IMG/VR virus record: IMGVR_UViG_3300042865_000288
Coordinates: 1 to 42,649 of that record
Source of the DNA: a virus
Reading direction: 5' to 3' (one strand)
Length of the DNA stretch: 42,649 bases
Part shown: positions 7,047-26,005 of the stretch, piece after piece
Numbering within the stretch: position 1 is the stretch's first letter
How the letters are laid out: each line of letters starts with the position of its first letter
Made by a program: the position numbers and the translations under genes
The notes under the pieces: generated by a model
Seen by the model: the letters and a program-made list of their open reading frames with translations, nothing else
Told to the model about the DNA's origin: nothing
Databases searched by the model: none

Positions 7047-10000
7047 ATGATCAGTTGTCCAATTACTCAGTTACCTCTTGAAAATTTCTACAAGTATGTT
7101 TTCCGTGCTATTAAAGATAGACTAGGAAATGATAAGACCTTTGATGTAAATGATTTCATGGAGAAATTATTTGAAGAGTCTGTTAAAAATGCTGATCCAG
7201 AAACTGCAGCTAAATGGTTGCAGAGTACACCGCGTGTAATAAATCTAATTATCACAAAGTCATTTAGTGATAAAATTCCATTAGTAAAAGGCTTAGACAG
7301 TATCTATGGTTTAATGACTGATTTTGCAAAACCAAACGGTGAAGGATTTCAGAATGTACTTAAGAAGTATTCTAAACCTGTAGACACAAAAGATTTAAAA
7401 GAAACAGCTGCCCATCAGTTATCTCTTGAATTCAGTGATGAAGAAGAAGAAGATAGTGATGAAGAGAAGAATGAAGAAAAGACAACTAAACCTAATACTA
7501 CTGCAAGACTTAAGACTCCGGTAGTTATGTCTGGTACTTTACAATCATTTTTACCAGTAAAACCGGAAGAAAAAACAGATACTTATATTGAAAAGTTAGA
7601 TCAGCCAAGAGCTAAGATACTAACTAATCTAGGTATTTTAGGAGATGCTTTTAATATGTCAGATCCTTTTTCCGGAGACTTTACATATCAAGGGAAAAAG
7701 ATTAAAGTAAAAGCTACTAATCTATATGCATTTTCTCAGCAACACTTTAATGAATTAGATCCTACTACACAAGATGAGATAAGACAATCTGGTTTATTTA
7801 CTGCAATCAACAGAGCTCAAGAAGGTGTTACTCAAGCAGATAAGAGAGTGATTCTTGTTATAACTGATGATACAGGAGAGAACTTATATTTTGATGAAGA
7901 AGGAAACATTACCAGTAAAGGTAATGGATCTATGGTGTATCAATTTATGAGAGATGTGAGAAAGACACCAAAAGGATACACAGTAACTGATATCTACGGT
8001 AAAGAAGAACAGCTAATGCCTGTTGCCACATATGCAGCCATGACATATAATCCAAAGATAGATGGAGATATGGCTACTTATATTGAAACAGTAAAAGATC
8101 AAAGAGAAAAGGAGCTAAAGAGACTGTTTGAAATTAGAGAAAAAGCATTAGGTAATGAAGTTCAGTTAGAGTTTTCTGGTTTAAGCACCGGAATTACCTC
8201 AGATCTAACTGCTACAAAAATACCTTTATCTGATTTTTTAAAGATACCTGGTTCAACAAAGAAAAGTCTTAAGACTATTCGTACTCTTAAATTAGCAGAA
8301 GGTAACTTTAAAAAAGGTAGAGCTGTAATTAATTTAAATGGTACAGACTTTCAAGTAAATAGATCATCTATGCCGGATAGTATTGCTGATCAGATTGCTG
8401 CAGTAATGTTTGATCCTAATATTCCTTTTGAAACTAAGAAAGATTTTTATTCTCAGTTTATTCCGGAAGACAGTGAGACAAAATTAGCCTACACTATGCG
8501 TAAGCATGAGATTATTCCTGATACAGCAAAGGGCACATTCAGGATTAAACTATATGATACAGTTGGTGATTCATTTGGTTTTACTACTGAACCTATTTTT
8601 GACTTTGTAATTTCTAAATCTTCATTAACTAAAGCTAGTAAAGAGCAATTAGAAAAAGGCATTAAAACATTAAGTGATACATTAAAGACAGGTAGAAAAA
8701 ATAATAAGCCTACATACATGTCTTATAAGTCTGATCTACTTAATAGTGAAGACTATCTTGTATACAACAGCAATACTAAACAGATTGAGATTGGTAACTA
8801 TATAGATTTTCTAAGCACTCTTGATGGTTATGTTGATTTATTTGATGGAGACCCAGGGTTCTATAATAAGCACATGTTATTTAATGAGCCTACCAAGCTA
8901 GATAAAGAGATCAAGAAAGCTAATGAAGCTGTCACAAAAACATTTGAAGAAGAAGTTGCAGAGGCAATGCGTGAGGCTGATGAAAGAAGGGCCCTTGAAA
9001 ATGCTAATAAATCTCCTATAGAGCGTGAAGCTGATATCATAAAAGACAGAGCTTTAAGTTCAGAGTATAGAGATACTTTAGCTGCACAAGGAAGCCAAGG
9101 ACGGTATGATAGTTTTTACTATACAGCTAGCTTAATCCAATCAATAAATAACAACAGAGATATTAGATACACCAGAGAGTCTGCAGAGCAGCTCCGTGAC
9201 ATGTTTGTTGGTGCTAGATATATTTCTGGTAAACAAATTGATGCAGTTAATGCTGCTATTGATGCATTATTCCCTAAAGGAAATACCGAAGCACAGAATA
9301 CAGTAGAGATAATTCAAAAGACTGTTGAGCCTGAGATGCCAGATCCTACTAAGATAAATCCTGTTGCAACTAAAAAAGGAAGTTTACTTAGCCGTATACC
9401 TAAGACAGGTTCATTAGATAGATCAGGCTATATTGCTGATGAGATTGGTGAAGAAGATACAGCTAAAGTTTTAGACTGGTGGAACAATACAGAACTAGGT
9501 AAAGAACTACAAAAGCACATTGCTCTTGAGCATGCATACAATTTAGTTAACTCTGATGTATTTGCTAGGTTTATTATAGATGGTTCTACATTAACTAATC
9601 CGGATATAAAAGGTAAAATCCAAATCAACAAAGGCAAAGGAACCTTAGTAGATATATATCATGAAGCTTGGCATGCATTCAGTCAATTATACTTAACCCG
9701 CCAGGAAAAGTATGATCTTTATGATGAAGTAATAAACTATAAAGATAGCAAAGGGAAGCAGCCTTACAAGTCCATGAACTATAAAGAAGTTGATGAGTTA
9801 CTTGCTGAAGACCTTAGAACTTATATGAAGAGCAACTATATTAAGAAAGGCTCTCCTATGAGAAACAAGATCTTTAGAAAGATTATGAATTTCTTGAGAG
9901 CTTTGTTTGGACTACAGCCAATTAATGCTACTGAAGTTATCACAGATGTAATGAATGTTCCTGCGGTAAGAGAAATGTTTGAAAAGTTAAACTACTCATC

Positions 10001-13000
10001 AAACAAAAAATCTTTTGTAAGATCTTACCAAGCTAACATTAAGAATGTAGACTTCTTTGAACTTAACCGTGGTATCAGCAAGTTAAACAGACCAAGTGAT
10101 TCTGCATTGAGTGATCAAGACTCAAGAAAAGTTTCAGATGCTATGGACATGGTTATCTCAGATGTTATTGATGAGATGTATGAAGAGCGTTTGGCTGAAG
10201 CTGAAGAGACTGGAAACTATAATAGTCTTAAATCTGGAACAATAGGTATGCTATTAGATCCGGAGTTAAGGGCATTTACATATACTGTTGTTAAAGAAAG
10301 ACTTCAAGATAAGTTAGACTATTTTAAAAACAAACTTCATTCTGAACCTGGTATAGCTCCATTTAGTGAGATTAAAACTTTGGAAGACATAGAGTCTAAT
10401 GCGGTAGCTGTATTAAAATCAGCTAAAGGAGAAGATAAGTATGTATTCCTTAAGTCACAGATAGATGGCTTTGACAATCTTAATCCTGAAATGAAAAAAG
10501 GGACAAGAGTAAAAGGTGAGTCTTGGCATGGTATAAAAATAGTTGGTGACTTCTTTTCTCATAAAAGTATTAAGAAAGATGCTAAGCCTGTAAACATTAT
10601 TGTTGTTTCAAATCTTGAAGATGCACAGGTGCAATATGATAACTATGTTGCCGGAGGTGCTAAAGATTATATTGATATAGAACTTAAAGATATTCCAGAG
10701 TATAATATTTCTGCAGAGCAAGAACTTACTCTTGATAATGTAAGAATACTACAAGCTGCTATAGATAATTATGGTGATCCAGAATGGGATATAAAAGGAA
10801 TAGAGCCTACAGGTACCATTGCCTATCACTTACAAAATTCTGACTTTGATATTAGTAAAAACAAGTATGACCTAGAGTTAGATGAAGAAGGTGAAGAAAT
10901 TGATGCAGATGTTCAAGATCAAACTAGAGATAGTGAAACACAATTTGGTGGAGAAGCAGGTAATAAAAAATCACTACTGCAACTAGCATCTAAAGAAGTA
11001 ATATACATTCTAAAAAGCTTACATAAAGTTGATAGAAGCGGAGAGATTTCTTATGATAGATTTGGATTTAAAGAAAGAGCTGACTTTAGAAAAGTATGGA
11101 ATATAGTTACTAAAGCTATTGGTGGTATAAGAGATAGAGTAGAAGTTTATGACCGTTTAATGGCAGAGTCTGCTAACTTTCCTGAGATTGCTCAGTTAAT
11201 TAAGACTAAGTTTCCTAATCCAAAACTTATTACTAACTCCTTTGAGCAAGATGTAAGTAATTCATTTTGGCAAACATTTGCAAAACCTTCAGTTAAGTAT
11301 TATCAGTATACTGTGTTCCCGCAATATGCAGATGGTGCTGACATGTTTGGTAATCCAATAAATTACATTAAAGGCTATGAATCTGATGTAACTCAATCTT
11401 CAATTGAAGTTGATAGTACAATTAGAAAGTTTGAAGCATTATTCAAAGGTAGTATTGCAAATCAATTTATAGAAAAGAATGCTGATAACCAATCAATGTT
11501 AAAACTTGATAGTGTAATTGAGGCCTTTGAAAATAAAAAGTACCCAGGACAATTAGATACTAGTAAAGCATTTGAATTTGCTGCAGCACTAGGAATGAAA
11601 CTGGATAATCTTCCGGTAATTAAGAAAAGTCTACAAGATGAAGCTGAGTATTATGGTCTTCCATATTTCTATGACATTATTAAAGATTTTAATGCTATAC
11701 AGAAAGCACAGAAAGCTACTCCTGAACAAATAGAGTTTCTTAATAAGTTTATTAGTAATCCTGTTGGAACACTAAGAGGTGAGATACCTAAAGGAGTTTT
11801 AAAAAGCTTTAGAAAAGAAGTTGCTGAGAAAAACATATTAAAGAGAATTGCTGAATTGCAATCTCAATATGGATATGACTCTGCTAACCCAGGAATCTTA
11901 TTACCTGACGGTAATAGAGTATTTGAAAATGTAAATCACAGTCAAGTTACAGTTACTGTAGACACTATAAATAAAGTTGAAAATCTAGAAGATCTCTGGA
12001 CTAAACCTGAGTTTAAGTTTATGTCACACTGGAGACCAGGTAAATCATTCTTTACATTAAGATCTAAAGTTATTGGATCTATGTTTGATACTACCAATGG
12101 TACTTTTGAGAAAAAAGGTGATAAGTATTTAGAGTTCCTAATGACTGCAGGTACACAGTTTGCAGAGATAGAGGGAATAAATACAGCTGACTTAGATAAA
12201 TTAGGTAAGTTTCAGCAGGAGTTCCATACATTTACATTAGGTGGAATAGCTGAGTTTATCCGTCATGCTGAAAAGAAATCTGCATTTGGTATTAAGCAGG
12301 CAGGTGGCAAAATGAAAGTTATTGTTAATGGAATCACCAATGGTGTTGACCAAAACTTATATATTGACTTAAGTAAGTTTGCTCCAAAGCCTGGACAACA
12401 AATAACTGATGGAGAAATTGTTGCTGCGGGAGGTTATTTCTTTGACTATATAGCTGCAGAGTTTGATAGAATCAGATACTTTAAACAAAACCCTCAGGAT
12501 CTTAAAAACATTAAAGGTTACAACAGAGAAATTAAAGATGCTAATGGTAAGGTAATCGGTAGAGCCGGTGAATTCTTTACAGCATTTGATAATATCTTGA
12601 CTAAAGCTACAAAGAATAAACTTTATGAACTTGCAAATGACCCTGTAATTGATCTACCTATCTACATAAAAAATAATCAGGACTTATACCTTGATATTCA
12701 GAATGATATAGTAGCTTACTTCAATGAAAAAGTTATGTCTGTTAAAGAAAACTACTTTGATAAGATGACTTATATTGATGATAAGGTCTATGAAAAAGCA
12801 GGTGTTTCAAAAGCAGAAAATGAAATAGATGAAAGTAAAGAAGTTCTGATAAAAGGCTATCTATATAATGACTGGATTCACAAGTTTGAAATGTTTAACA
12901 TGTTCAATGGAGATCTTGCTCAGTTTAATCATGATAAGCAAGAAGCAAGTAAGCGTGCTCCTGGATCAACTTCTGATGGTGATGGATTTGTGAATGATAA

Positions 13001-16000
13001 ATACATGCATGAATTCATTAACAAAGTCTTTAATAAGAAGACTTATGCTCAAAAGTTAGCTAAAGAAACTGGATTAGACTTAGATAAGTTTGTAATGGAT
13101 GGTACCTTAAATACCGGAGTTATTGCAGATGCAGAAAGAAAATCTGTTTACTTAGATGATTATCTAAATGCATGGGAAGAACAATATCGTGCTAACCTAA
13201 CACCTATTATCAAAGACAAAGCTAAACTAGAAACAGAAATCAAAAGAAGATTAGCTAAAGATGCTAAGGCATATAAAGAAATGAAAGAATCTGATGGTGC
13301 AGCATTTATGACGCTTGATGCATACCGTACTATCAAAAAGATGGGTAATAACTGGGGTATTCCACAGGAAGCTTTATATCAACAGATTGTTAATGGAGAA
13401 GAGGTAGATCCTTTAAAAGTAAAAGAGTTTTTCCCTATATATAAACTTCATTACTACGGTTCCATTGCTAATGCTCCTATAGCAACAACAGCTATGCATA
13501 AGTTTGCAGTTGCACCTATTATTCCAACTATTGCTGTAAAAGGTACTGAGTTGTATAATCTACATGTAAAAATGCTCAAATCAAATATTCAGTATGTTAC
13601 ATTTGGTTCAGGCTCTAAAGTAGGAACACTTACCACTGATGGAAATTTTGATAACATTTTTGGTAATGAAGAACAGAATACAGTGTCAATGGATGCACCA
13701 ATTAAAAACAATCAGATTTATTTGGAGTATCTAAAAGATGTAACAAAGGTTGCTAGCAAACTTAAGAAAGAGATAAGCTACCCAACACAGAAACGTGTAT
13801 TACTATTAGATAGTTTATATAATGTTGGAGAGATCATGCATAAATCACATGAGAATATTGCCAATAATTATAAAGCATCTGTTGATGAATACACTAATAC
13901 ATTAACACTTGACTTATTAAATAAAATTGGGTATGAATATGATCCTAAGACTGAAAAGTATGTAGGTAAGTTAGACAAGTTTATTGAACTTATCAGAGAT
14001 GAATTAGGTATGAAAGAGGTACCTGAGCATTTAATTAAGCTTTTAGATGTAACTCTTGCAGATAATTTATCAATGGACTTCTCTATTCACCCGGAGGCGG
14101 ATACACTTGAAAAAATTATTGTAAATAGAATTCAGAAAAGTGTAGTAAAGCAAAAAACAAAAGGAGAATCATTAGTTCAGGCTCCATCTACTTTTTATAA
14201 TGGTGTATGGGACAGTGCTTATCAAAGAGATGAAGCCATCAAAAAGAATGATGAGTTAATTAAAAAGTATTTAGGTTCTAACAACCTACCTTTTTATATG
14301 ACATCCTTTGATGAAAATGGTAAAAGATTAGCTACTGCAGCTATGAAAGTTGCAATACCATTAAATGGTGACTTCTTGAACATACTTAAACTAAAACATC
14401 CTGATGGAAATCCTATTGGAACTAGAGACCGTTTGAATGATTTAATTAAGAATGAGGAATGGTTAAATGAAAACAGAGAACTAATTACTATTGTAGGACC
14501 AAGAATCCCAACCGATGCTGCTAATACAATGGAGTTTGCTGAGGTATGGCACTTTATTGATGCTTCTGCAGGTAACACAGTTATAGTACCTACTGAGATA
14601 GTTGCTAAAGCTGGATCTGACTTTGACGTAGATAAGATCTTCTTCATGATGCCAAATATAAATCCTGATGGTACAATGGTTAAGGCACCGGCAGAAAGTT
14701 TAAAAGAACTTACTGAGATGGTTAAAGAAGGTAACAAGCTTAATAAAAAACAAAGAAAAGAAAAAGGCTTAAAAAATCCTCAAGTATTGATTGATCAGTA
14801 TAAGAAAGCTGTTCAGAATAAGTTAATTAGAAATACCCGTGAGATACTTTCTTTGCCAGAAAACCTTGCTAACTTGACTAAACCAAATAATACTTATTTA
14901 GTAGAAGATCATGTTGACTTTTATGATAAGTATAACAGAGGATATGATAATAAAAAGAATGCTCATGAAGAACCTGTAAGGATAAATGATGACAAAGAAG
15001 TTATGAGTCCTACAAGAGTATTTGATATTGAGTATAACTTAAGTCAGCATGAGTCTAACCTTTCCGGTAGTTTACCATTAGGTATTATGGCCAAGAAGAA
15101 TAAGATACACACTTTATTTAAAAGCGTAGGTGCCATTATGCCTAAAAGCTATAAGGCTACTGTATGGAATGATGAAGCTAAGAAATATGATGAGCTTCCT
15201 GCAGAATACAATGTAGTTATCCGCATGCCGTATAACAAGACCCGTAATTCTGCTGGTCAAGAAGTTGTATCATTATCTAGTGAAGTTAATGTAGATGGTG
15301 AAAAGATTGGAGATATATTCTCTCATGGTTTACAAGGTTTGCTTGACCGTGCTAAAAATCCTTTTCCATTTAAATTGCAAATTGTAAAAGAAGCATTGAG
15401 TACTATCAATCACCTTATTGAAGCTGGTGTAGGTGTAGCAGAAACATTTGCTTTTGTTAATAATCCTTGGATTGTTAAATATATTCAAAGACAAATGCAG
15501 TATAGCGGGTCAACTTCTAAATTCTTAACTATACCTATACCAAAGAATCAAGTTAAGTCTCAAGCAATGAGAGATGTTATTGATGAACTAGCACAGTATG
15601 GCGGAAATGAAATGAAAAAAACAATATTCCAACTTGCTAATTATGCTAATGACCGTAGACTTTATGACATTATAGATGTAATAAAAAGTAAAGATAAAAA
15701 TATCAGATATGAGTTTACACTTGATAATGGTACAGAATTATCTAAACCATTATCCGCAACTGCTGAAAGAATACTTAGTAAAGATTTTCCATTAGATAAA
15801 ATTTTTACTTTAAAAGAATCTGAGCCAAACAAATCTTTTGATGATCAAAAAACATTGTTTCAAAGATCACCTGGTATTGCTAATAATGATAATTTCTATT
15901 ATGCTGCCGAGGCTGCATGGAGAAGGGCATTTGGGTATCAGACTGAACTTAAAGCGGATGATTTACAAAAGTTTGTAAGGGAAGGAAGCAGTCCTACGAT

Positions 16001-19000
16001 TCAAAACTTGGCAATTCTACTCCACATGGTACAGTTAGAAAAACAGTTTAGTGGTATGGATTCATTAGAAATGTCATTTAGTCCTGATACAGGGCTTATG
16101 GATACTACTCTTCAAGTTAAGAAAAGAGATGATGCATTCAAAATGTTTGATGAGTCATCCAAGATTGATTCTGATTTCTTGAAAAGACTTAGGCATAATT
16201 CACTTCTGTCATCATTCTATAAGAGTGATTTGATCATGGATCTTGTAGTTCCTTTGTTTTCATTAAGACTTAATGAATCTATCTCAGGTTTTATTGAGAA
16301 GAAGATTGAACAAAACAAAGACATGATTGCACAAAAATTTGGGCCAGGTTTACAAGGTCAAGAAAGATTTATCAATATGTACAATAATGCTGTGGTAAAT
16401 TACATCTTCCAAAATACTATGTCTAACTTCCCAGATAAGACTGGTAATCCAGTTATTCTTCCAGAAGAATTACATACTTATCCGGTAACTCAAGTTGAGA
16501 AAGGACCAGCTGTTGTTTTAAATGAAAAAGGTTTCAGAGTAAATATTAAACAAGCTGAAGAAGACTATGCAGCAAAAATCTTTTTAAGCAATAATAACAC
16601 AGATAACAGTTATGCTAGTACTGGTCAAGATACATTTGATGCCGGTCAAAATCCTTTCCCAACATTTGCTAGCTACTTAAAGTTTATAGTTGAGAAAGAA
16701 TATGCAAGCAGTGTTTATACTGATAAAGATGATAAGTTCATAACTGAAAGAGCTTTGATGAATAGCTTCAACCGCGCATACATTATGGGTACTACAAAGT
16801 ATTCATATACAACCTTGGTAATGGACACCATTAATGAGTTTGAAGATCAAAACATTAAAGAAAACTATCCTGTATTATCACAGATTGCTCCTGCAAAATT
16901 TGTTAAGGATGCAAATGTATTAGAGCTTAATGATAAAGCAACTGCCAAAGGTGCAATTGCAGATGACTATTATAAGAATCTAAAACAACTTGCTGACCCT
17001 ACTGTAAGAAAAGTACAGAACAAAGAAGATAACAAAAGAATCAGTGATGTATTTAAGAACTTCTCTATGCTTATGTTCTATCAACATGGAATGGGTTATT
17101 CTAAACTTGGATTCCCAAAAATCTTAGACCCAGAAGCATTTACTGAAGTAATGCAGAATGCAGCTAATAGTTTCTTAAATAATAACTTGGATGAACAAAC
17201 ATTTGAAAGAATCTATGCTAGACTTAATACTAAGAGTCAATTTAAAGATTATACAGTTGATCCAAGTAAAATGGATGAACCAGAAACTATTGAAGCTTTA
17301 CTAGATACACTATCAGATGATGCACTTGCAGAAATGGCTAATTTCCTAGGTACTGGAACATCTACACCATCTACTCAACCTACTGAAAGAAAAACCTACT
17401 CAGGTAAAGTAACTAATTTACAACCTAATCAAATATTTGTATTTGGAAGTAATCCTGAAGGAAGACATGGTGCTGGTGCTGCTAAATATGCAAAAGATAA
17501 TTTTGGGGCTATTTATGGACAGGGAGAAGGTCTTCAAGGGCAAAGTTATGCTTTACCTACTAAAGACTTAAGAGTAAAAGAGAATAATGGTTTAAGATCC
17601 ATTTCATCTAAAGACATAACTTCTAATATTAAAAAATTATATGATATTGCAAGGCAAAACCCTACTAAAGAATTTTTAGTATCAGATTATTCTGGAACTA
17701 ATCTTAATGGTTATACAGGCCAAGAAATGGCAGATATGTTTTCTGAGGCAGGACTTATACCTAATAATATTGTGTTTCATGAAAACTTTAATAAGTTAAT
17801 AACTACTCAACCTACTCAATCTACTGAAGCATCAGAATATATAAATTATTCTGGTGGAGCAATAGGTAGTGATACAATATGGTCAGAAATAGGTAAAGAA
17901 TTTGGAATAGGTAAACAAGTAGATTATAAACCACAAACTTTACAAAAACTCACTTCTGAACAAGTTAAAGAAGTTGAAGATGCTTATCAAAAAGCAGCAA
18001 GTGATTTAGGAAGAAAAGCATTAGAATATGATTGGAATAACCCTAATGCTAAAAATGCCGAAGGAAAAAGTATTTATTATTCAGGTGGTTTAGTAAGAAG
18101 AGATTATCTTCAAGCTAAAGCAGCAGATGCAGTATTTGCAGTGGGTAAAATTTTAGAACAAGGAGATACTAATAGTAAAGGTTATAAAGTAAAAGCTCTT
18201 CAAGTTGATGGTGGTACCGGATATGCTGTACAAATGGCCATTAATCTTGGTAAACCAGTATATGTATTTGATCTAAATTATAATGTTTGGATGAAATATA
18301 ATCCAGAAGGCCTTGTAGACTCAGATATACCAGGACAGAAAGGTAGATTTGAACAAACTGATACTCCTATTTTAACAAAGAAATTTGCTGGTGTTGGTAC
18401 TAGAGAAATAACTGAAGCTGGTAAACAAGCTATTAGAGATGTATATACTAATACATTTGCAACTCCTACCACTCAACCATCTACTCAACCTACTGAAGCT
18501 CCAGTAAGTAATACTAATAAACCTAAAGGTGAAGAAGTAGTACCTGGAATATATGTAAATCAAGCTGCTTTAACTAAAGAAGAACAACTTGAGTTATTTG
18601 ATTATTTAAAACCATATCTTGAAGAACAAGCTGCCAAAACTAATAAAGGAACACAAGCTAGTAAAATGATTGGTCTTGGTTTAAGATGGGATTACAAAAG
18701 TAATAATGTAGGAAGAACAGCAATTAATATTCCAGATGTAATTAATCCAGGTAATAAAAACAAATATGGATATTATGATGTATCTATTAATGATCAACCC
18801 CTTGGACAAATTACAGCAAGATTTAGAGAGCTAATGCAAAAAGCTACCGGAGTAGATATGACAAACTATGATGGTGCTATTATTAATCTTTATGAAAAAG
18901 ATACCTTTATATCTTCTCATAATGATGTAGATGAAAGCAAGTCAGCTATTAAGTATCCAGTTATTGGTATTAATCTAGGTGGTAAAGGTAATTTCTCAAT

Positions 19001-19436
19001 TGAAAGAATACCAGGAGCAGGTCAATTAAGTTTAGAAGCCGGAACAGGTTATATATTTGGTGTTGATGGTGTTAACAGAGAAGTATGGCATAGAACATTC
19101 CCAACTCCACAAGATACATTTTTACCAGAACTTACTACAAAAATTGATGGTAAAACATATCCTGCTGGTTCTTATAGAGTTACTATTACTATGAGAAGGG
19201 TTACACCTTTAGAACCTGGTATGCCTACAGCACCAGCTAAGATTACTACCCAACCTACAGCTATTGAGACTGCTGCAGCAACACCGTTAGATAAAATAAA
19301 TGAATTTTATAACAGTCTTACTCAGGAACAAAAAGATAAATTAGGTAACTTAGATGACTTGATTGCTGAGTATAATGATGTTCCGTTTGACTATCCGGTA
19401 GAAGATTATATTGAAAGTATTAAATGTAAGTTATAA
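7047..19436 (+). CDS. Giant single-chain phage RNA polymerase with extra peptidase, SLOG-like and AlkB-like modules
   Basis: This 4129-residue protein is the crAss-like phage RNA polymerase. The catalytic double-psi barrel is clear: an RIPT motif (residues 2486-2489) precedes DFDVD (2525-2529, nt 14619-14633), whose three Asp residues would hold Mg2+, matching DFDID of the characterised phi14:2 enzyme and NADFDGD of cellular beta-prime. A likely beta-type barrel lies upstream (MHK at 2150-2152, GSGSKVG at 2187-2193), Lys2152 and Lys2191 being candidate conserved lysines. Other parts: an acidic stretch near 133-145; a zincin-like HEAWH (872-876); and, beyond the polymerase, three modules joined by Thr-Gln-Pro linkers: a FVFGSN/GRHGAGAA family (3450-3585), a SLOG-like fold (YSGGAIGSD, DGGTGYAVQMA, FAGVGTRE; 3597-3805), and an AlkB-like 2-oxoglutarate/Fe dioxygenase (His3958, Asp3960, His4015, Arg4044/4050). 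Cys4 and Cys4127 are its only cysteines. Probably packaged to transcribe early genes after entry (inference). The downstream ATG overlaps its TAA. Confidence 0.93.
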   Translation: MISCPITQLPLENFYKYVFRAIKDRLGNDKTFDVNDFMEKLFEESVKNADPETAAKWLQSTPRVINLIITKSFSDKIPLVKGLDSIYGLMTDFAKPNGEGFQNVLKKYSKPVDTKDLKETAAHQLSLEFSDEEEEDSDEEKNEEKTTKPNTTARLKTPVVMSGTLQSFLPVKPEEKTDTYIEKLDQPRAKILTNLGILGDAFNMSDPFSGDFTYQGKKIKVKATNLYAFSQQHFNELDPTTQDEIRQSGLFTAINRAQEGVTQADKRVILVITDDTGENLYFDEEGNITSKGNGSMVYQFMRDVRKTPKGYTVTDIYGKEEQLMPVATYAAMTYNPKIDGDMATYIETVKDQREKELKRLFEIREKALGNEVQLEFSGLSTGITSDLTATKIPLSDFLKIPGSTKKSLKTIRTLKLAEGNFKKGRAVINLNGTDFQVNRSSMPDSIADQIAAVMFDPNIPFETKKDFYSQFIPEDSETKLAYTMRKHEIIPDTAKGTFRIKLYDTVGDSFGFTTEPIFDFVISKSSLTKASKEQLEKGIKTLSDTLKTGRKNNKPTYMSYKSDLLNSEDYLVYNSNTKQIEIGNYIDFLSTLDGYVDLFDGDPGFYNKHMLFNEPTKLDKEIKKANEAVTKTFEEEVAEAMREADERRALENANKSPIEREADIIKDRALSSEYRDTLAAQGSQGRYDSFYYTASLIQSINNNRDIRYTRESAEQLRDMFVGARYISGKQIDAVNAAIDALFPKGNTEAQNTVEIIQKTVEPEMPDPTKINPVATKKGSLLSRIPKTGSLDRSGYIADEIGEEDTAKVLDWWNNTELGKELQKHIALEHAYNLVNSDVFARFIIDGSTLTNPDIKGKIQINKGKGTLVDIYHEAWHAFSQLYLTRQEKYDLYDEVINYKDSKGKQPYKSMNYKEVDELLAEDLRTYMKSNYIKKGSPMRNKIFRKIMNFLRALFGLQPINATEVITDVMNVPAVREMFEKLNYSSNKKSFVRSYQANIKNVDFFELNRGISKLNRPSDSALSDQDSRKVSDAMDMVISDVIDEMYEERLAEAEETGNYNSLKSGTIGMLLDPELRAFTYTVVKERLQDKLDYFKNKLHSEPGIAPFSEIKTLEDIESNAVAVLKSAKGEDKYVFLKSQIDGFDNLNPEMKKGTRVKGESWHGIKIVGDFFSHKSIKKDAKPVNIIVVSNLEDAQVQYDNYVAGGAKDYIDIELKDIPEYNISAEQELTLDNVRILQAAIDNYGDPEWDIKGIEPTGTIAYHLQNSDFDISKNKYDLELDEEGEEIDADVQDQTRDSETQFGGEAGNKKSLLQLASKEVIYILKSLHKVDRSGEISYDRFGFKERADFRKVWNIVTKAIGGIRDRVEVYDRLMAESANFPEIAQLIKTKFPNPKLITNSFEQDVSNSFWQTFAKPSVKYYQYTVFPQYADGADMFGNPINYIKGYESDVTQSSIEVDSTIRKFEALFKGSIANQFIEKNADNQSMLKLDSVIEAFENKKYPGQLDTSKAFEFAAALGMKLDNLPVIKKSLQDEAEYYGLPYFYDIIKDFNAIQKAQKATPEQIEFLNKFISNPVGTLRGEIPKGVLKSFRKEVAEKNILKRIAELQSQYGYDSANPGILLPDGNRVFENVNHSQVTVTVDTINKVENLEDLWTKPEFKFMSHWRPGKSFFTLRSKVIGSMFDTTNGTFEKKGDKYLEFLMTAGTQFAEIEGINTADLDKLGKFQQEFHTFTLGGIAEFIRHAEKKSAFGIKQAGGKMKVIVNGITNGVDQNLYIDLSKFAPKPGQQITDGEIVAAGGYFFDYIAAEFDRIRYFKQNPQDLKNIKGYNREIKDANGKVIGRAGEFFTAFDNILTKATKNKLYELANDPVIDLPIYIKNNQDLYLDIQNDIVAYFNEKVMSVKENYFDKMTYIDDKVYEKAGVSKAENEIDESKEVLIKGYLYNDWIHKFEMFNMFNGDLAQFNHDKQEASKRAPGSTSDGDGFVNDKYMHEFINKVFNKKTYAQKLAKETGLDLDKFVMDGTLNTGVIADAERKSVYLDDYLNAWEEQYRANLTPIIKDKAKLETEIKRRLAKDAKAYKEMKESDGAAFMTLDAYRTIKKMGNNWGIPQEALYQQIVNGEEVDPLKVKEFFPIYKLHYYGSIANAPIATTAMHKFAVAPIIPTIAVKGTELYNLHVKMLKSNIQYVTFGSGSKVGTLTTDGNFDNIFGNEEQNTVSMDAPIKNNQIYLEYLKDVTKVASKLKKEISYPTQKRVLLLDSLYNVGEIMHKSHENIANNYKASVDEYTNTLTLDLLNKIGYEYDPKTEKYVGKLDKFIELIRDELGMKEVPEHLIKLLDVTLADNLSMDFSIHPEADTLEKIIVNRIQKSVVKQKTKGESLVQAPSTFYNGVWDSAYQRDEAIKKNDELIKKYLGSNNLPFYMTSFDENGKRLATAAMKVAIPLNGDFLNILKLKHPDGNPIGTRDRLNDLIKNEEWLNENRELITIVGPRIPTDAANTMEFAEVWHFIDASAGNTVIVPTEIVAKAGSDFDVDKIFFMMPNINPDGTMVKAPAESLKELTEMVKEGNKLNKKQRKEKGLKNPQVLIDQYKKAVQNKLIRNTREILSLPENLANLTKPNNTYLVEDHVDFYDKYNRGYDNKKNAHEEPVRINDDKEVMSPTRVFDIEYNLSQHESNLSGSLPLGIMAKKNKIHTLFKSVGAIMPKSYKATVWNDEAKKYDELPAEYNVVIRMPYNKTRNSAGQEVVSLSSEVNVDGEKIGDIFSHGLQGLLDRAKNPFPFKLQIVKEALSTINHLIEAGVGVAETFAFVNNPWIVKYIQRQMQYSGSTSKFLTIPIPKNQVKSQAMRDVIDELAQYGGNEMKKTIFQLANYANDRRLYDIIDVIKSKDKNIRYEFTLDNGTELSKPLSATAERILSKDFPLDKIFTLKESEPNKSFDDQKTLFQRSPGIANNDNFYYAAEAAWRRAFGYQTELKADDLQKFVREGSSPTIQNLAILLHMVQLEKQFSGMDSLEMSFSPDTGLMDTTLQVKKRDDAFKMFDESSKIDSDFLKRLRHNSLLSSFYKSDLIMDLVVPLFSLRLNESISGFIEKKIEQNKDMIAQKFGPGLQGQERFINMYNNAVVNYIFQNTMSNFPDKTGNPVILPEELHTYPVTQVEKGPAVVLNEKGFRVNIKQAEEDYAAKIFLSNNNTDNSYASTGQDTFDAGQNPFPTFASYLKFIVEKEYASSVYTDKDDKFITERALMNSFNRAYIMGTTKYSYTTLVMDTINEFEDQNIKENYPVLSQIAPAKFVKDANVLELNDKATAKGAIADDYYKNLKQLADPTVRKVQNKEDNKRISDVFKNFSMLMFYQHGMGYSKLGFPKILDPEAFTEVMQNAANSFLNNNLDEQTFERIYARLNTKSQFKDYTVDPSKMDEPETIEALLDTLSDDALAEMANFLGTGTSTPSTQPTERKTYSGKVTNLQPNQIFVFGSNPEGRHGAGAAKYAKDNFGAIYGQGEGLQGQSYALPTKDLRVKENNGLRSISSKDITSNIKKLYDIARQNPTKEFLVSDYSGTNLNGYTGQEMADMFSEAGLIPNNIVFHENFNKLITTQPTQSTEASEYINYSGGAIGSDTIWSEIGKEFGIGKQVDYKPQTLQKLTSEQVKEVEDAYQKAASDLGRKALEYDWNNPNAKNAEGKSIYYSGGLVRRDYLQAKAADAVFAVGKILEQGDTNSKGYKVKALQVDGGTGYAVQMAINLGKPVYVFDLNYNVWMKYNPEGLVDSDIPGQKGRFEQTDTPILTKKFAGVGTREITEAGKQAIRDVYTNTFATPTTQPSTQPTEAPVSNTNKPKGEEVVPGIYVNQAALTKEEQLELFDYLKPYLEEQAAKTNKGTQASKMIGLGLRWDYKSNNVGRTAINIPDVINPGNKNKYGYYDVSINDQPLGQITARFRELMQKATGVDMTNYDGAIINLYEKDTFISSHNDVDESKSAIKYPVIGINLGGKGNFSIERIPGAGQLSLEAGTGYIFGVDGVNREVWHRTFPTPQDTFLPELTTKIDGKTYPAGSYRVTITMRRVTPLEPGMPTAPAKITTQPTAIETAAATPLDKINEFYNSLTQEQKDKLGNLDDLIAEYNDVPFDYPVEDYIESIKCKL
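17361..19265 (+). repeat. Thr-Gln-Pro linker repeats separating RNA polymerase tail modules
   Basis: Four in-frame copies of a Thr/Gln/Pro-rich linker lie in the 3' end of the polymerase gene: nt about 17361-17387 (STPSTQPTE), 17803-17828 (TTQPTQSTE), 18468-18500 (TTQPSTQPTEA) and 19243-19265 (TTQPTAIE). The first three share the DNA phrase ctactcaacctactgaa or a near copy. They flank and separate the three accessory modules, so they look like flexible tethers and also like short homologies through which modules could be exchanged or lost. Confidence 0.85.
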
Positions 19437-20359
19437 TGAGTTGTATTAATAAGGCAGATAAAGCATATAAAGCATTGCAGAGTGTCTACGGAGATGCTCT
19501 TGCAGAAGCTTTTGTCCGGGCTCATCCTTTTAATAAAGGTAAGTCTGAAGATATGACCTTTGACATACCTAGCAAAAAGGAAGTCAAAGACTGGCTTACT
19601 CAACAGAAGTTAAACATTCCAAAGAATGTAAAGAGAGCTATGGAAATTAATCCATATCTATCAGAGAATGCTATCAAAAGTATGCTTAAAGGAGTTATTA
19701 GTAAGCACAAGGATGCTTACTTTATAACAACAGGTTGGATATTTTCTGGATCAACAACACTTGGTCAAGAAGTTTTTGAAACCATCTATAAACCTAACAT
19801 GCAGGTTATGGAAAAACTTCAAGATGAGTACCCAGATATATTCAGACTTAAAGGAACTAAAAATACATATACTACTGTTGTTGAAATAACACCAAGAGTA
19901 AAAGAGGAAACAGCTCCGGAAGAAGAAGACCTTGATGAAGAGATAGTTACTTCTGAAGAACCAGAAATAGCGGAAAGTCTCCGTACATATAGATCAATTG
20001 TAGACATGAATAATGGCCGTAAACCTGTAGAGTTTATGGCAGGTAACTTTAAATGGCAATTAAACAAAAATGGTTTATACAATCTAGTTGACAAGTTTAC
20101 CAATGATGTATATGTAAGAAATATGGATTTAGATACTGGAGAGATGATTCCGGAAATAGATCCTGGAACCCCGGCATCTGAAGAAAAAAGAGATAGAATA
20201 TTTAGATCAGTAATGCAAATGATTAGAGAACAAAAATTAGATGAGTATCTTGCTGTAAAAGGCATTGACACTGCAGATATCTATGAATCTCTAAGAGACG
20301 CAGAGACAGATAGAGATTTAAATAAAGTTATAGAAACATTATTAAAAGCAATATGTTAA
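19436..20359 (+). CDS. Unknown virion-block protein with terminal cysteines
   Basis: This 307-residue protein starts at an ATG whose A is the last base of the polymerase stop codon (TAATG), so translation is probably coupled. No known family is recognised. Residues 1-65 form a small helical domain with the motif DIPSKKEVKDWL (about 43-54), which recurs almost identically in a small minus-strand gene at 23967-24215. A Glu/Asp-rich linker lies at about 157-180, followed by a second helical domain. The only cysteines are Cys3 and the very last residue, Cys307. The last codons overlap the next gene: the TGT of Cys307 lies within the ATGTTAA that starts it. Context between the RNA polymerase and the 1144-aa protein suggests a virion or polymerase-associated role, which is inference. 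Confidence 0.85.
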   Translation: MSCINKADKAYKALQSVYGDALAEAFVRAHPFNKGKSEDMTFDIPSKKEVKDWLTQQKLNIPKNVKRAMEINPYLSENAIKSMLKGVISKHKDAYFITTGWIFSGSTTLGQEVFETIYKPNMQVMEKLQDEYPDIFRLKGTKNTYTTVVEITPRVKEETAPEEEDLDEEIVTSEEPEIAESLRTYRSIVDMNNGRKPVEFMAGNFKWQLNKNGLYNLVDKFTNDVYVRNMDLDTGEMIPEIDPGTPASEEKRDRIFRSVMQMIREQKLDEYLAVKGIDTADIYESLRDAETDRDLNKVIETLLKAIC

Positions 20360-23300
20360 GTTGTCCAAGAAAAACAAGTAGAGAATGGCAAGATGTTCTT
20401 GCAAGAGCTAACGGTAATGAAGATGAGGCAAGAAGAATCTGGATTGAAGAAGAGTTTGAATTCAATCCTGATTTAAATATTGAGGTTAATGATGATAACT
20501 ATGAAGATGAGCGTGAAGGTGAGCCCGGTCAAGAAGAGCTGGAGCCTAATGATGACTTCTCTAAACTAATCCAAAGAATCAAGATCTATATAAATAAGCA
20601 AATTGAGATACTTAATAGTAAGAAGATTGCTAATGTTAAGTACAAGCAAAGTAAATTGAATGAGCTACTTAATGCAGTAGAAACAATGGACGGTGTTGCA
20701 TCTATAAATGTCTTTATAAAAGATGCATATGATAAAGCAAAGCAAGTACAAACCAGATTTGCTAAGCTACTTGTAAATAAAAACAAGATGAGTTCTAAGG
20801 AAATCATGATAGAACTTACCGGTATAAATGACTTTGCAAACAGTTATTCAATATTAGATGAGATAGACTCAGCTGACATCATGAATTACTTTAGCACTAG
20901 TGATACTGAAGAAGGAGCTATTGGACCAATGACTCCTCAAAAAATGCTAGCTGAAGCAATAAAAATCCGTGACAAGGTAAAAAAGAAAGTTGTTACTGAA
21001 GCTATTCCACTCATGGCAGAGTATTTAGTTGAGTATAAATCTACTCTACAAGACAAAACCATTCCTGAAGAAATAGCCAGAATGGAACAACAAATAAAAG
21101 ATATTGAAGCTAATCCTAAAATGTCTGATAAAAGAAAAGAAAAAGAAATTAAAAAACTAGAAGATAGACTGAAGCTGTTTGAAGGATTTGATATTGACCA
21201 AGGATCAATGGAACAAATACTAAAAATGGCTAATAGAGATGAGGGTGTTATTGACTTTCTTATATCTCCACTTATTACATCTTCTGACAGTGCATTAGCT
21301 TTATTTGCTAAGTCAATCAAAAGCCAGTTAGAATTTGCAAGACAAAAAGATATCAAAGTAAGAGACAGATTAGTATCAGCTTTTGAAAAGTATAGAAACA
21401 CTGCTCCTGCTTCTTCTGATAATACTGCAAAATTTAATGAGGGTATTTATGATGAAGTTGAGATACCTGTATATGAAAAAGATGGTACTATTTCCGGAAC
21501 AAGAAAAGAACTACAGTTTGTACAGAAGTTTAACATGGGTGAGTTCAATAAAGCAAAGAAAGAGTTCTTTGATAAGTTAGGACCAATGCCACAAAAAGTA
21601 GGAGAAAAAGCTACTAAAGAAGAAGCAGCTAAAATAAAAGCTTGGTGGGAAGCTAGAAACAAATGGTATGCTGATAATACGCAACCAAGACCAAAAGCTG
21701 AAAGAGATGCTATCATTCTACAGATGCAGAAAGATAGAGACAATAAGCTGATAAGTGAAGATGATTACAATAACTGGCTTAGAAAGAATGTCAGAGAATA
21801 CAAAGGCGCAGTATCTTACTTTGATGATTTAGCAACTCCGTCTAATAAATATAAGAGTGATAAATGGAATGCTATGTATGACTCTAATGATGTTCCTAAG
21901 AATGAGAAAGGTAGATATCATGAAGAGTTACTTAAGATTTATTTTGAAGCCCAAGCTAAACTTCCAGAATCACAACAAAAAGGTTTTAGGCTACCTTCTA
22001 TTTCTAAGTCTGATCTAGAAAGAATAATGCAAAACGGTCTCAAAGATTTTGTTACTACAAATCTTAAAGAAGCTGTTAAAGTACAATCATGGGATACAGA
22101 GTTTGGATTAGGTAGCTTATCTGAAGAAGATGTTAAGTTCCTGCCGATATATTATACACAGCAGATGGATGTTAAGGATGTAACATTAGACTTAGCAATG
22201 TCAGTCCTTGTATTTAGTGCTATGGCTAATAAGTATGAGGCTATGAATAATGTAAATGCCGAGATATCACTTATGAAAACTATTGTTGGGGCCCGTAAAG
22301 TTCCGGAAACAAATAGTAAAGGTCAAGCTGTCTTAGATGCATTTGCAAAAAAGCTTGGTTATGAAGAGTATATCCGTCAGAATGGAGAGAGCTATTCTAA
22401 AAAACACTTAGATGCATTTATTGATATGGTCATCTATGGTGAGATGCAAAAAGCTGAAGAAATCTTTGGTGGTTTATCACTTACTAAGATAACTAATTCA
22501 GCTATGTCATATTCAGCAATTACTACAATTGCGGCTGACTTACTTAAAGGTGTAGCTAATAATCTACAGGGAAATATTCAGGTATTAATTGAGGCAGCTG
22601 GAGGCCAGTTCTTTAACCGTAAAAATTTAAGAAGAGGTAAAGCTTTTCTTGCTAAAAATCTACCAAGTGTATTAGCTGATTTTGGTAAGCCTGCACCCAC
22701 AAGTCTTCTAGGAAAACTAGTAGAGAAGTTTGATCCAATGCAAGGTAACTTCAAAGATAACTATGGTAAAAAGGTGAGTATGAGCAGATTAAATAAGCTT
22801 ATGCGAACTGATACTTTATTCTTTAACCAGCACTTTGGGGAGTATGAGATTCAAGTTTCTACTATGTTAGCCTTATTTGATAATATCAAAGTATTAGATA
22901 AAGCCACAGGAGAGGAAATAACTCTACTTCAAGCTTACAATACTTACGGTGCAGATGAAGCGCACAGCAAAATAAAAATTGCCAAGACCAATAGTAAAGG
23001 TGAAGTAGAAACTGATGATCAAGGTAATACTGTATACATTCCTTTTGGTGAAACTCAGAGACAGGATATACAAGCTAGACTTCACGGTTTGAATAAATAC
23101 ATGCATGGTGTTTATAATGACTTTGATAAAGGTACTTTGCAGAAATATTCTCTTGGTCGCTTAGTATTAATGTATAGAAAACATGTGGTACCTGGATACA
23201 AAAGAAGATTCAAACGCGTATCTATGGATCATGAGATTGGTACACCAACAGAAGGATACTACAGAACTTTTGCAGATACAATGCTCTCTGACATAAAACA

Positions 23301-23787
23301 GTACAAGTTTAATATAATTAAGAACTGGTCAACATACACTCCTTTTCAAAAAGCACAGATAGCAAAAGTACTTACTGAACTTACAATTATTCTTAGCTTA
23401 GCTACATTAGCATTTGTATTAACTAGACTACTAGTTAATCCAGATGATGATGAAAGAGATCCTATCCAAGATAACTTTGGTTACAACTTCCTATTGTATG
23501 AAACACTGAGGATGAGATCTGAAACTGCATCATACATTAATCCTATTGATGCTATCCGGGTTATGAGATCACCATCAGCTATGACTAGTACAATAGATAG
23601 GGTGATTAAATTTATGAATCAAGTAATGCCTTGGAATATTACTGAAGAGTATAAAAGAGAAACAGGAATATGGAATAAAGGAGATAATAAAGCTTGGGCA
23701 GCATTTATAAAACTTATGGGTTTCTCTGGATACAATACAAATCCAGAGCAAGCATGGAAATCATTTGAATCATCATTCTTTAAATAA
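20353..23787 (+). CDS. Giant virion-type protein with C-terminal membrane segment
   Basis: This 1144-residue protein begins MLSCPRKTSREWQDVLARA; the start overlaps the previous gene by seven bases (ATGTTAA). The N-terminal CP...EW...A...W pattern resembles, from memory, N-termini of other large crAss-like virion proteins; residues 4-45 probably form a small targeting or docking module. Residues about 70-300 are long charged helices, probably coiled coil. Residues about 1009-1032 (ELTIILSLATLAFVLTRLLV) form one convincing transmembrane helix, followed by an acidic NPDDDERD segment. Cys4 is its only cysteine. No catalytic motif is visible. It is the last large gene of the plus-strand block, so a packaged cargo or membrane-channel role during DNA entry is plausible but inferred. 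Confidence 0.85.
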   Translation: MLSCPRKTSREWQDVLARANGNEDEARRIWIEEEFEFNPDLNIEVNDDNYEDEREGEPGQEELEPNDDFSKLIQRIKIYINKQIEILNSKKIANVKYKQSKLNELLNAVETMDGVASINVFIKDAYDKAKQVQTRFAKLLVNKNKMSSKEIMIELTGINDFANSYSILDEIDSADIMNYFSTSDTEEGAIGPMTPQKMLAEAIKIRDKVKKKVVTEAIPLMAEYLVEYKSTLQDKTIPEEIARMEQQIKDIEANPKMSDKRKEKEIKKLEDRLKLFEGFDIDQGSMEQILKMANRDEGVIDFLISPLITSSDSALALFAKSIKSQLEFARQKDIKVRDRLVSAFEKYRNTAPASSDNTAKFNEGIYDEVEIPVYEKDGTISGTRKELQFVQKFNMGEFNKAKKEFFDKLGPMPQKVGEKATKEEAAKIKAWWEARNKWYADNTQPRPKAERDAIILQMQKDRDNKLISEDDYNNWLRKNVREYKGAVSYFDDLATPSNKYKSDKWNAMYDSNDVPKNEKGRYHEELLKIYFEAQAKLPESQQKGFRLPSISKSDLERIMQNGLKDFVTTNLKEAVKVQSWDTEFGLGSLSEEDVKFLPIYYTQQMDVKDVTLDLAMSVLVFSAMANKYEAMNNVNAEISLMKTIVGARKVPETNSKGQAVLDAFAKKLGYEEYIRQNGESYSKKHLDAFIDMVIYGEMQKAEEIFGGLSLTKITNSAMSYSAITTIAADLLKGVANNLQGNIQVLIEAAGGQFFNRKNLRRGKAFLAKNLPSVLADFGKPAPTSLLGKLVEKFDPMQGNFKDNYGKKVSMSRLNKLMRTDTLFFNQHFGEYEIQVSTMLALFDNIKVLDKATGEEITLLQAYNTYGADEAHSKIKIAKTNSKGEVETDDQGNTVYIPFGETQRQDIQARLHGLNKYMHGVYNDFDKGTLQKYSLGRLVLMYRKHVVPGYKRRFKRVSMDHEIGTPTEGYYRTFADTMLSDIKQYKFNIIKNWSTYTPFQKAQIAKVLTELTIILSLATLAFVLTRLLVNPDDDERDPIQDNFGYNFLLYETLRMRSETASYINPIDAIRVMRSPSAMTSTIDRVIKFMNQVMPWNITEEYKRETGIWNKGDNKAWAAFIKLMGFSGYNTNPEQAWKSFESSFFK

Positions 23788-26003: not shown

Positions 26004-26005
26004 AA

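Follow-up and report, generated by a model that had tools for sequence, protein, structure and literature searches.

Exchangeable accessory modules carried inside a crAss-like virion-type RNA polymerase

A crAss-like virion-type RNA polymerase encoded on a 42,649-base virus record (IMG/VR record IMGVR_UViG_3300042865_000288, analysed over its whole length and called the window here; it is without end repeats, and such records are often fragments) carries three accessory modules, a predicted macrodomain, a SLOG domain and an AlkB-like dioxygenase, on repeated Thr-Gln-Pro (TQP) linkers within a single open reading frame (ORF). We think it probable that this tail is an exchangeable effector cassette that is delivered into the cell within the polymerase, with counter-defence as its most likely role; its anatomy is well supported, and its function is inferred. 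An earlier note on this DNA, made from its letters only, had proposed a polymerase followed by three modules on TQP linkers, and the open frame, the family matches and the TQP counts given below confirm that arrangement. The positions of all features are given in Table 1.

The body of the ORF is, by its homology to the phi14:2 type and its DxDxD motif, a crAss-like virion-type RNA polymerase. Run against 937 ORFs from 12 reference stretches, a profile built from 72 related polymerase cores matched phi14:2 gp077 at 7.1e-19 and the overlapping phi14:2 stretch (L199) at 4.3e-22; apart from these it matched only parts of giant genes in cr109_1 and cr130_1 (L006 and L008). At an expectation value (E) limit of 1 the profile matched neither crAss001 gp50 nor the ORFs of L003, L004, L005 and L007; the ORFs of these four loci do align over short stretches by BLASTP. 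A profile of the polymerase core found no relative among PDB sequences. A tblastn search gave 12 records, all weak and the majority crAss-like, and one phage record among the matches carries the annotation 'putative RNAP catalytic subunit'. In an alignment of relatives (alignment A5) D74, F75, D76 and D78 of the catalytic motif are unchanged in all 12 sequences, and DFDxD is present in the polymerases of phi14:2, crAss001, L003, L004 and L005; it was looked for in the L007 polymerase and was not found there. The crAss-like virion RNA polymerase of phi14:2 is reportedly the subject of work by Drobysheva et al. Some ORFs of this kind are labelled in public records after one module only ('DprA-like').

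The first module, which the earlier note had assigned to a 'GSN-GRHGAG' family with no fold attached, is a real module of the A1S_2505 family (3.2e-34 in NCBIfam, where the family is named only as a phage non-structural protein; 2.6e-37 to phrog_2072) and is now predicted to have a macrodomain (ADP-ribose-binding type) fold. A macrodomain was suspected from the motifs of the module and was then tested by structure prediction as follows: the best PDB matches in Foldseek of its AlphaFold model (predicted local distance difference test, pLDDT, 93.8; 60 sequences) are macrodomains (TARG1, template modelling score 0.67, probability 1.00), and structural realignment placed TARG1 with ADP-ribose (2l8r) first (Z 11.0, root-mean-square deviation, rmsd, 2.6, 120 residues aligned) and gave Z 9.9 for the DarG macrodomain 5m31. 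Most of the 50 realigned rows are titled macrodomains or ADP-ribose hydrolases, and the remaining ones, putative macro relatives, comprise designed hydrolases, Poa1p and YmdB as well as one Thermus protein and two proteins without known function from Bacteroides. Residue K55 is kept in at least 90% of the 60 sequences and may correspond to K80, the catalytic lysine of DarG. Sequence profiles of the first two modules run against PDB sequences had best E values of 0.068 and 0.38, with no macrodomain match for module 1. The macro fold of A1S_2505 may or may not already be in print.

The second module is, by its modelled fold and its SGG loop, a SLOG domain of the circularly permuted YpsA (cpYpsA) type, in agreement with the earlier identification as SLOG-like. 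It matches phrog_768 (DprA-like) at 1e-5, and no Pfam or NCBIfam match was found at the limits used, cpYpsA included, save one at the chance level of 0.13 in Pfam. Its AlphaFold model (pLDDT 94.8) has 3imk as the top structural match upon realignment (Z 11.1, rmsd 3.0, 125 residues aligned; the next chain has Z 5.5; Foldseek probability 0.90). The structure 3imk is a relative of the Pfam cpYpsA SLOG family, because L031, which is a Pfam cpYpsA domain (1.7e-23), matches it at 3.3e-12. SLOG domains are marked by an SGG-rich nucleotide-binding loop; the loop in the window reads SGGAIGSD, and its S6, G7, A9 and D13 are unchanged in 9 sequences. Structure searches thus assigned neither of these two modules to an unrelated fold, an outcome that the earlier note had raised as a danger to its proposal; the third module is identified from Pfam and motifs.

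A1S_2505 also occurs elsewhere. Of its best 80 of 273 loci, with near-copies counted, 39 lie within an ORF of at least 1,000 residues, and five (L066, L067, L068, L074 and L075) encode a two-domain A1S_2505-SLOG protein of 317-356 residues; four of the latter are on contigs of 219-361 kb. Such two-domain proteins point to a functional pair.

The third module matches Pfam 2OG-FeII_Oxy_2 (PF13532) at 1.5e-12 (48.6 bits, cut-off 31.2), and since it scores 24.9 bits against TIGR00568 (alkb), far below that family's cut-off of 231.05, we call it AlkB-like and not AlkB itself. The AlkB-type signature consists of NxY, HxD, a distal His and RxxxxxR, and the window copy keeps all seven of these residues, which bears out the earlier claim of an AlkB-like enzyme with intact residues. 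Among 26 copies of the module NxY and HxD are present in every one, the distal His in 24, and the first and second Arg of RxxxxxR in 22 and 24, respectively. To judge from ratios of nonsynonymous to synonymous substitution (dN/dS) of 0.08-0.33 relative to the window in the 16 close-group copies that gave a value, the AlkB module is under purifying selection. A profile of the module had a single weak match among PDB sequences (the 2OG-Fe oxygenase 5xeg, 0.0098), and a scan of prokaryote genomes for this module found no relative.

The linkers set the modules apart from the polymerase. TQP occurs five times in the tail (residues 3443, 3587, 3809, 3813 and 4068) and not once in the first 3,430 residues, and 2,000 shuffled tails had a mean of 0.165 TQP and a maximum of 3. 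The repetition extends to the DNA, where CYACYCAACCW occurs five times in the window vs 0.04 expected, every time at a TQP linker. After linker 4 comes a segment that is 52-98% identical within the close polymerase group (L009-L012, L015 and L016) in spite of their unlike cassettes. The polymerase chain thus resumes there, and the modules form an internal cassette: the earlier placing at the C-terminus holds in that they follow the polymerase part, but they are not at the very end.

Table 1. Positions of the features discussed (window coordinates).
Feature	Positions	Strand	Basis
Single ORF, 4129 residues: crAss-like virion-type RNA polymerase with inserted module cassette	7047..19436	+	Reading frame, core profile, tblastn
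DFDVD, DxDxD catalytic motif of the polymerase	14619..14633	+	Alignment of relatives
Linker 1 (TQP at 17373, DNA repeat 17371-17381)	17352..17399	+	TQP and DNA-repeat counts
Module 1: A1S_2505-family domain, predicted macrodomain fold	17400..17804	+	NCBIfam, phrog, AlphaFold
Linker 2 (TQP at 17805)	17805..17834	+	TQP and DNA-repeat counts
Module 2: SLOG domain, circularly permuted YpsA type (modelled)	17835..18458	+	phrog_768, AlphaFold
Linker 3 (TQP at 18471 and 18483)	18459..18518	+	TQP and DNA-repeat counts
Module 3: AlkB-like Fe(II)/2-oxoglutarate dioxygenase	18519..19220	+	Pfam and motifs
Linker 4 (TQP at 19248)	19221..19256	+	TQP and DNA-repeat counts
Conserved C-terminal polymerase segment, with Cys 4127 (19425-19427)	19257..19436	+	Comparison of relatives
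Cys 4 codon, one of two Cys in the ORF (the other is Cys 4127)	7056..7058	+	Translation
HExxH zincin-type metallopeptidase motif (YHEAWHAFSQL), residue 872, N-terminal third of the polymerase ORF	9660..9674	+	Motif
Upstream neighbour, 1916 residues, ends in Cys, another Cys at 1017	1292..7042	+	Translation
Downstream neighbour, 307 residues, Cys at residue 3 and at last residue	19436..20359	+	Translation
Next protein, 1144 residues, sole Cys at residue 4	20353..23787	+	Translation

It is exceedingly improbable that this architecture is an artefact in which a frameshift or a chimeric assembly fused separate genes, the error that the earlier note had asked to be considered. The window is one metagenomic contig, and the order macro-SLOG-AlkB was found in just 1 of 45 complete distinct ORFs (L010 has NADAR-SLOG-AlkB; this set was partly gathered by module queries, and prevalence is therefore quoted below from a survey made with the core only). 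However, the ORF reads open throughout, with no stop or frameshift across the four linkers, both flanks are syntenic with L010 (DNA identity 76.3% upstream and 81.1% downstream), in-frame modules occupy the same slot on independent contigs, base composition has no clear break (33.0% GC in the core and 30.9-32.2% in the modules), and the tail is free of Cys up to the terminal one. An assembly error is unlikely from the relatives and the frame, as judged on the contig sequence.

Exchange of modules between crAss-like polymerases, which the earlier note had suspected, is seen both in that survey and in near-identical pairs of loci. The best 80 of 199 loci gave 72 distinct ORFs, and after the 16 with a cut C-terminus were dropped 56 complete ones remained (near-copies such as L205 and L206 among them); a module counts as recognised if it resembles one of 13 profiles, which derive from these very tails. 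At least one recognised module is present in 40 of the 56 ORFs, which is a lower bound for any insert. They have 30 architecture strings ('none' included) and tails of 68-1860 residues (median 749), with AlkB in 14, SLOG in 13, NADAR in 7 and the macro module in 2; the other tags are recurring unnamed modules. Some loci have an AlkB module 77-94% identical to that of the window, yet their polymerase cores are only 22-69% identical to it; there is also a deeper AlkB group at 60% identity, and further copies stand at 24-51%.

The near-identical pairs differ as follows: over 11 kb, as far as ...EQGPTQP, L011 and L012 share 98.8% identity; their cassettes then differ (NADAR-SLOG-divergent AlkB in the former and unknown-AlkB in the latter), and beyond them identity is again 98.3%. 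Between L030 and L040 identity is 99.8% as far as GPTQPSVRKT, after which the first has AlkB and the second macro; L039 and L040 have this macro module in common and then diverge; and the pairs L018/L132 (98.1% identical) and L137/L142 (97.6% identical) show two switches each. Fourteen joints were hand-picked from a part of the close pairs, plus L014/L018 at 90.6% identity, and 7 of the 8 upstream joints are at a TQP or TEP linker. The polymerases of the two Kehishuvirus phages cr112_1 (L005:1886-9574) and crAss001 (gp50, L198:5486-12724) are 97.3% identical (2,348 residues), and a macro-type module after residue 60 is present in the first and absent from the second.

Similar stretches of about 75 residues (e.g. 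...GNYDLVDATTGEIYLRNINMETG...) seem, by eye, to flank the cassette on both sides in L014, L018, L020, L022 and L026, and it is possible that they are recombination arms. A superfamily 1 (AAA_30-type) helicase lies before AlkB in the L021 polymerase ORF and after it in those of L024 and L029. A Pfam scan of 20 tails gave NADAR above the cut-off in two and below it in one, cpYpsA in one, DUF7831 in one and 2OG-FeII_Oxy_2 above the cut-off in 17, mostly loci gathered by an AlkB query. Two module labels given by eye, 'DUF4326-like' and 'ASCH-like', were dropped when PF14216 and PF04266 were each found in 0 of 6 records; no support was found for a 'kinase-like' label, and 'ART-like' modules matched PF18760 (ART-PolyVal) weakly, at 0.0028 and 0.032, below its cut-off.

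The very fast turnover of modules, and the fact that 16 of the 56 complete ORFs have no recognised one, would fit linker repeats that are simply a recombination hot spot collecting any phage domain, most modules then having no role in infection. We find this quite unlikely, because the AlkB copies keep NxY and HxD throughout and are under purifying selection in the 16 copies above, and because the named modules come from few families (NADAR, SLOG, macro and AlkB), though the profiles were drawn from these tails. A sensory role, in which the modules would sense NAD+, ADP-ribose or 2-oxoglutarate and so tune the polymerase to the state of the host, is unlikely as well. The modules are tethered to the polymerase, and where phage SLOG domains are fused to nucleic-acid enzymes they have been interpreted as sensors (PMC9503650); but an allosteric sensor should keep its place, whereas module order and kind vary between near-identical polymerases, another crAss-like polymerase has such a module close to its N-terminus, an N4-like virion polymerase has one in its interior, and AlkB has kept its catalytic residues.

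Do the modules of the proposed effector cassette enter the cell? phi14:2 gp076-gp078 are virion proteins according to the record annotation, from tandem mass spectrometry, and crAss001 gp47, gp49 and gp50 are virion proteins by mass spectrometry (PMC10172136). With such relatives in virions, the polymerase most likely brings its modules into the host together with the DNA; that they stay attached to it on the way we infer from these homologues and from the following cysteine patterns.

In the set of loci fetched with the core (starts taken as the first Met, near-copies partly retained) a Cys is found within the last 12 residues of the polymerase in 56 of 56 ORFs and within its first 8 in 61 of 62, within the last 12 residues of the upstream neighbour in 60 of 60, and within the first 10 of the downstream neighbour in 56 of 56 (at its far end in 10 of 55). 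The interiors of 47 complete polymerase ORFs hold 7 Cys in 186,477 residues, and 40 of the 47 have none. Over all loci both sides of a junction have the Cys in 92 of 109 cases and neither side in 13. The same terminal pattern is present in phi14:2, and in crAss001 too, but there gp50 has one extra Cys and gp47 lies on the opposite strand. The pattern is looser in the L003 polymerase (7 Cys); that of cr50_1 (L004) has 3 Cys, none of them N-terminal, and a Cys-free upstream neighbour, and the N4 and Pylas virion polymerases have no Cys at all. Not one Cys occurs in the 22,249 residues of macro, SLOG, AlkB and NADAR modules that are embedded in giant ORFs. Free-standing A1S proteins have Cys in 19 of 33 (26 in 4,340 residues) and free-standing SLOG proteins in 7 of 12 (19 in 2,139 residues); no free copies of AlkB or NADAR were suitable for this contrast. 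That embedded modules are as free of Cys as the polymerase argues that they travel as part of its chain. The terminal pattern suggests a head-to-tail disulfide-linked cargo chain that is kept free of other thiols, and disulfides are known in crAss001 tail proteins (PMC10172136).

A more elaborate version, in which tethered erasers (macro or NADAR for ADP-ribosylated bases, AlkB for adducts of the alkyl type) would let the polymerase read incoming DNA marked by host enzymes, and the disulfide-linked head-to-tail cargo train would be released in the reducing cytoplasm, is in our opinion rather doubtful. We would give a similarly small chance to a variant in which the polypeptide is cut at the linkers, for example by its own metallopeptidase-like region, and the modules act as free proteins. 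An HExxH motif is present in the first 2200 residues of 62 of 62 related RNA polymerase ORFs that have their start inside the contig (shuffles expect 1.0), and a Pfam scan of the window ORF gave no metallopeptidase match. Processing by a metallopeptidase is a proposed theme of polyvalent proteins (PMC5512222); the N4 virion polymerase, which has such a domain, is nonetheless packaged unprocessed (PMC5512222). This variant is compatible with delivery as an effector cassette and differs only in the last step.

The preferred reading, an injected effector cassette, may be set out as follows: the polymerase, a virion protein in cultured relatives, would carry the modules into the cell along with the DNA, so that they could act before any phage gene is expressed. 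Their most likely action would be counter-defence directed at ADP-ribose-type signals or marks and at base adducts; the macrodomain, or NADAR in its place, would remove or bind ADP-ribose on phage DNA or free ADP-ribose-type signals, SLOG would bind or cleave a nucleotide signal, and AlkB would strip oxidisable adducts from bases. New cassettes would arise by recombination, with joins often at the linker repeats. Within early counter-defence, signal removal and DNA cleaning are equally open variants. Early counter-defence is favoured because macro (DarTG2) and NADAR (DarTG1) are the types of DarG antitoxin that reverse thymidine and guanosine DNA ADP-ribosylation (PMC11543638; NADAR specificity also in PMC11125620), ADP-ribose signalling in Thoeris involves effectors with SLOG or macro domains (PMC11204291), and phage AlkB-like enzymes have been proposed to reset methyl marks in phage or host DNA (PMC7824862). 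The counter-defence role put forward in the earlier note is supported as plausible.

Several observations weigh against this reading. Besides the 16 complete relatives that have no recognised module, none of the 13 module profiles (E 0.01) matched in the stretches of crAss001, phi14:2 or N4, so that no module is essential. Only 1 of 6 downstream joints is at a TQP or TEP linker. In AlkB, dN/dS relative to the window is 0.37-0.53 in five copies and 0.70-0.94 in three divergent ones, and the distal His is absent from two of the 26 copies. Shared descent enters into the Cys contrast between modules inside giant ORFs and free-standing ones, and a tree-aware test of it for A1S was not significant with its only 4 supported pairs. 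The best Foldseek E values for both models are weak (5.4e-3 for module 1 and 8.5e-2 for module 2), for which reason their folds were called from the AlphaFold models and structural realignment, and neither a macrodomain fold nor a SLOG fold is proof of ADP-ribose chemistry.

Elsewhere in the window, a scan of 10 proteins of the other strand gave DNA polymerase, primase, DnaB-like helicase, exonuclease, ATPase and HNH family among its results, and no DNA similarity of positions 24612-27904 to phage records was found.

Among human gut viruses, crAss-like phages have been called the most abundant (PMC10172136). If the preferred reading is true, a swappable virion-polymerase cassette would offer a ready catalogue of tools for early counter-defence, and the swapping of modules among these loci suggests that the polymerase also serves to bring in tools for disarming the bacterial host. 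The pair cr112_1 and crAss001, whose polymerases differ by the macro-type module, is a natural experiment. The terminal Cys, if they reflect disulfide-linked cargo, would hint at how giant proteins leave the phage head in order.

How does this polymerase compare with known systems? Iyer et al. 2017 (PMC5512222) described polyvalent proteins, N4-like virion RNA polymerases with fused domains among them. The window ORF resembles the polyvalent N4-type polymerases in being a giant polypeptide with a virion-type RNA polymerase, a zincin-type motif and disparate domains, presumed injected; with polymerase, macro, SLOG and AlkB it has at least the two disparate domains in one polypeptide that define a polyvalent protein. 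The fused domains named for the N4 type are metallopeptidase, ART, lysozyme and PBECR, and a zincin-like metallopeptidase domain is almost always present (PMC5512222). The window differs in its crAss-like polymerase, in its macro, SLOG and AlkB modules on repeated linkers, and in the swapping of cassettes between near-identical loci. The virion polymerase of the Klebsiella phage Pylas (N4-like, Schitoviridae) has the same SLOG module (42% identical, L002:14001-14546, profile 1.4e-69), but there it lies at about residues 984-1158 of a 3819-residue N4-type polymerase and not in a C-terminal cassette.

Like the window ORF, phi14:2 gp077 belongs to the same polymerase family and has the DxDxD motif and a Cys near both ends; unlike it, gp077 has 2180 residues and none of the 13 modules by profile (E 0.01). 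As in DarTG antitoxins, the macro and NADAR hydrolase superfamilies occupy the module slot, but the phage macro module is the separate sequence family A1S_2505, and its substrate may differ. The SLOG, Macro and NADAR domains of phage NAD+/ADP-ribose networks, for which a role against ADP-ribose-based immune signals has been proposed, overlap with the domain set found here (PMC9503650); they typically stand alone, whereas those of the window sit in a virion-type polymerase with AlkB added, and the words 'crAss' and 'DprA' both have counts of 0 in the main text of that paper. Yutin et al. (PMC7886860) reported that crAss-like phages have PDDEXK domains and large transcription proteins made of several domains, and the passages concerned do not name the modules of the window ('dioxygenase' and '2OG' have word counts of 0). 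Among the matches listed in our literature search, from which subscription papers were mostly out of reach, neither the arrangement nor the cysteine pattern was recognised as described. The earlier note knew of no described polymerase with such a tail; this stands for the crAss-like version, for which none was found, but not in general, as N4-type polymerases with fused effectors are in print (PMC5512222). The kind is thus known in outline from polyvalent proteins and N4 virion polymerases with fused effectors, and what is new, as far as these searches tell, is the crAss-like polymerase as carrier, the frequent AlkB module, and the swapping of linker cassettes between near-identical loci.

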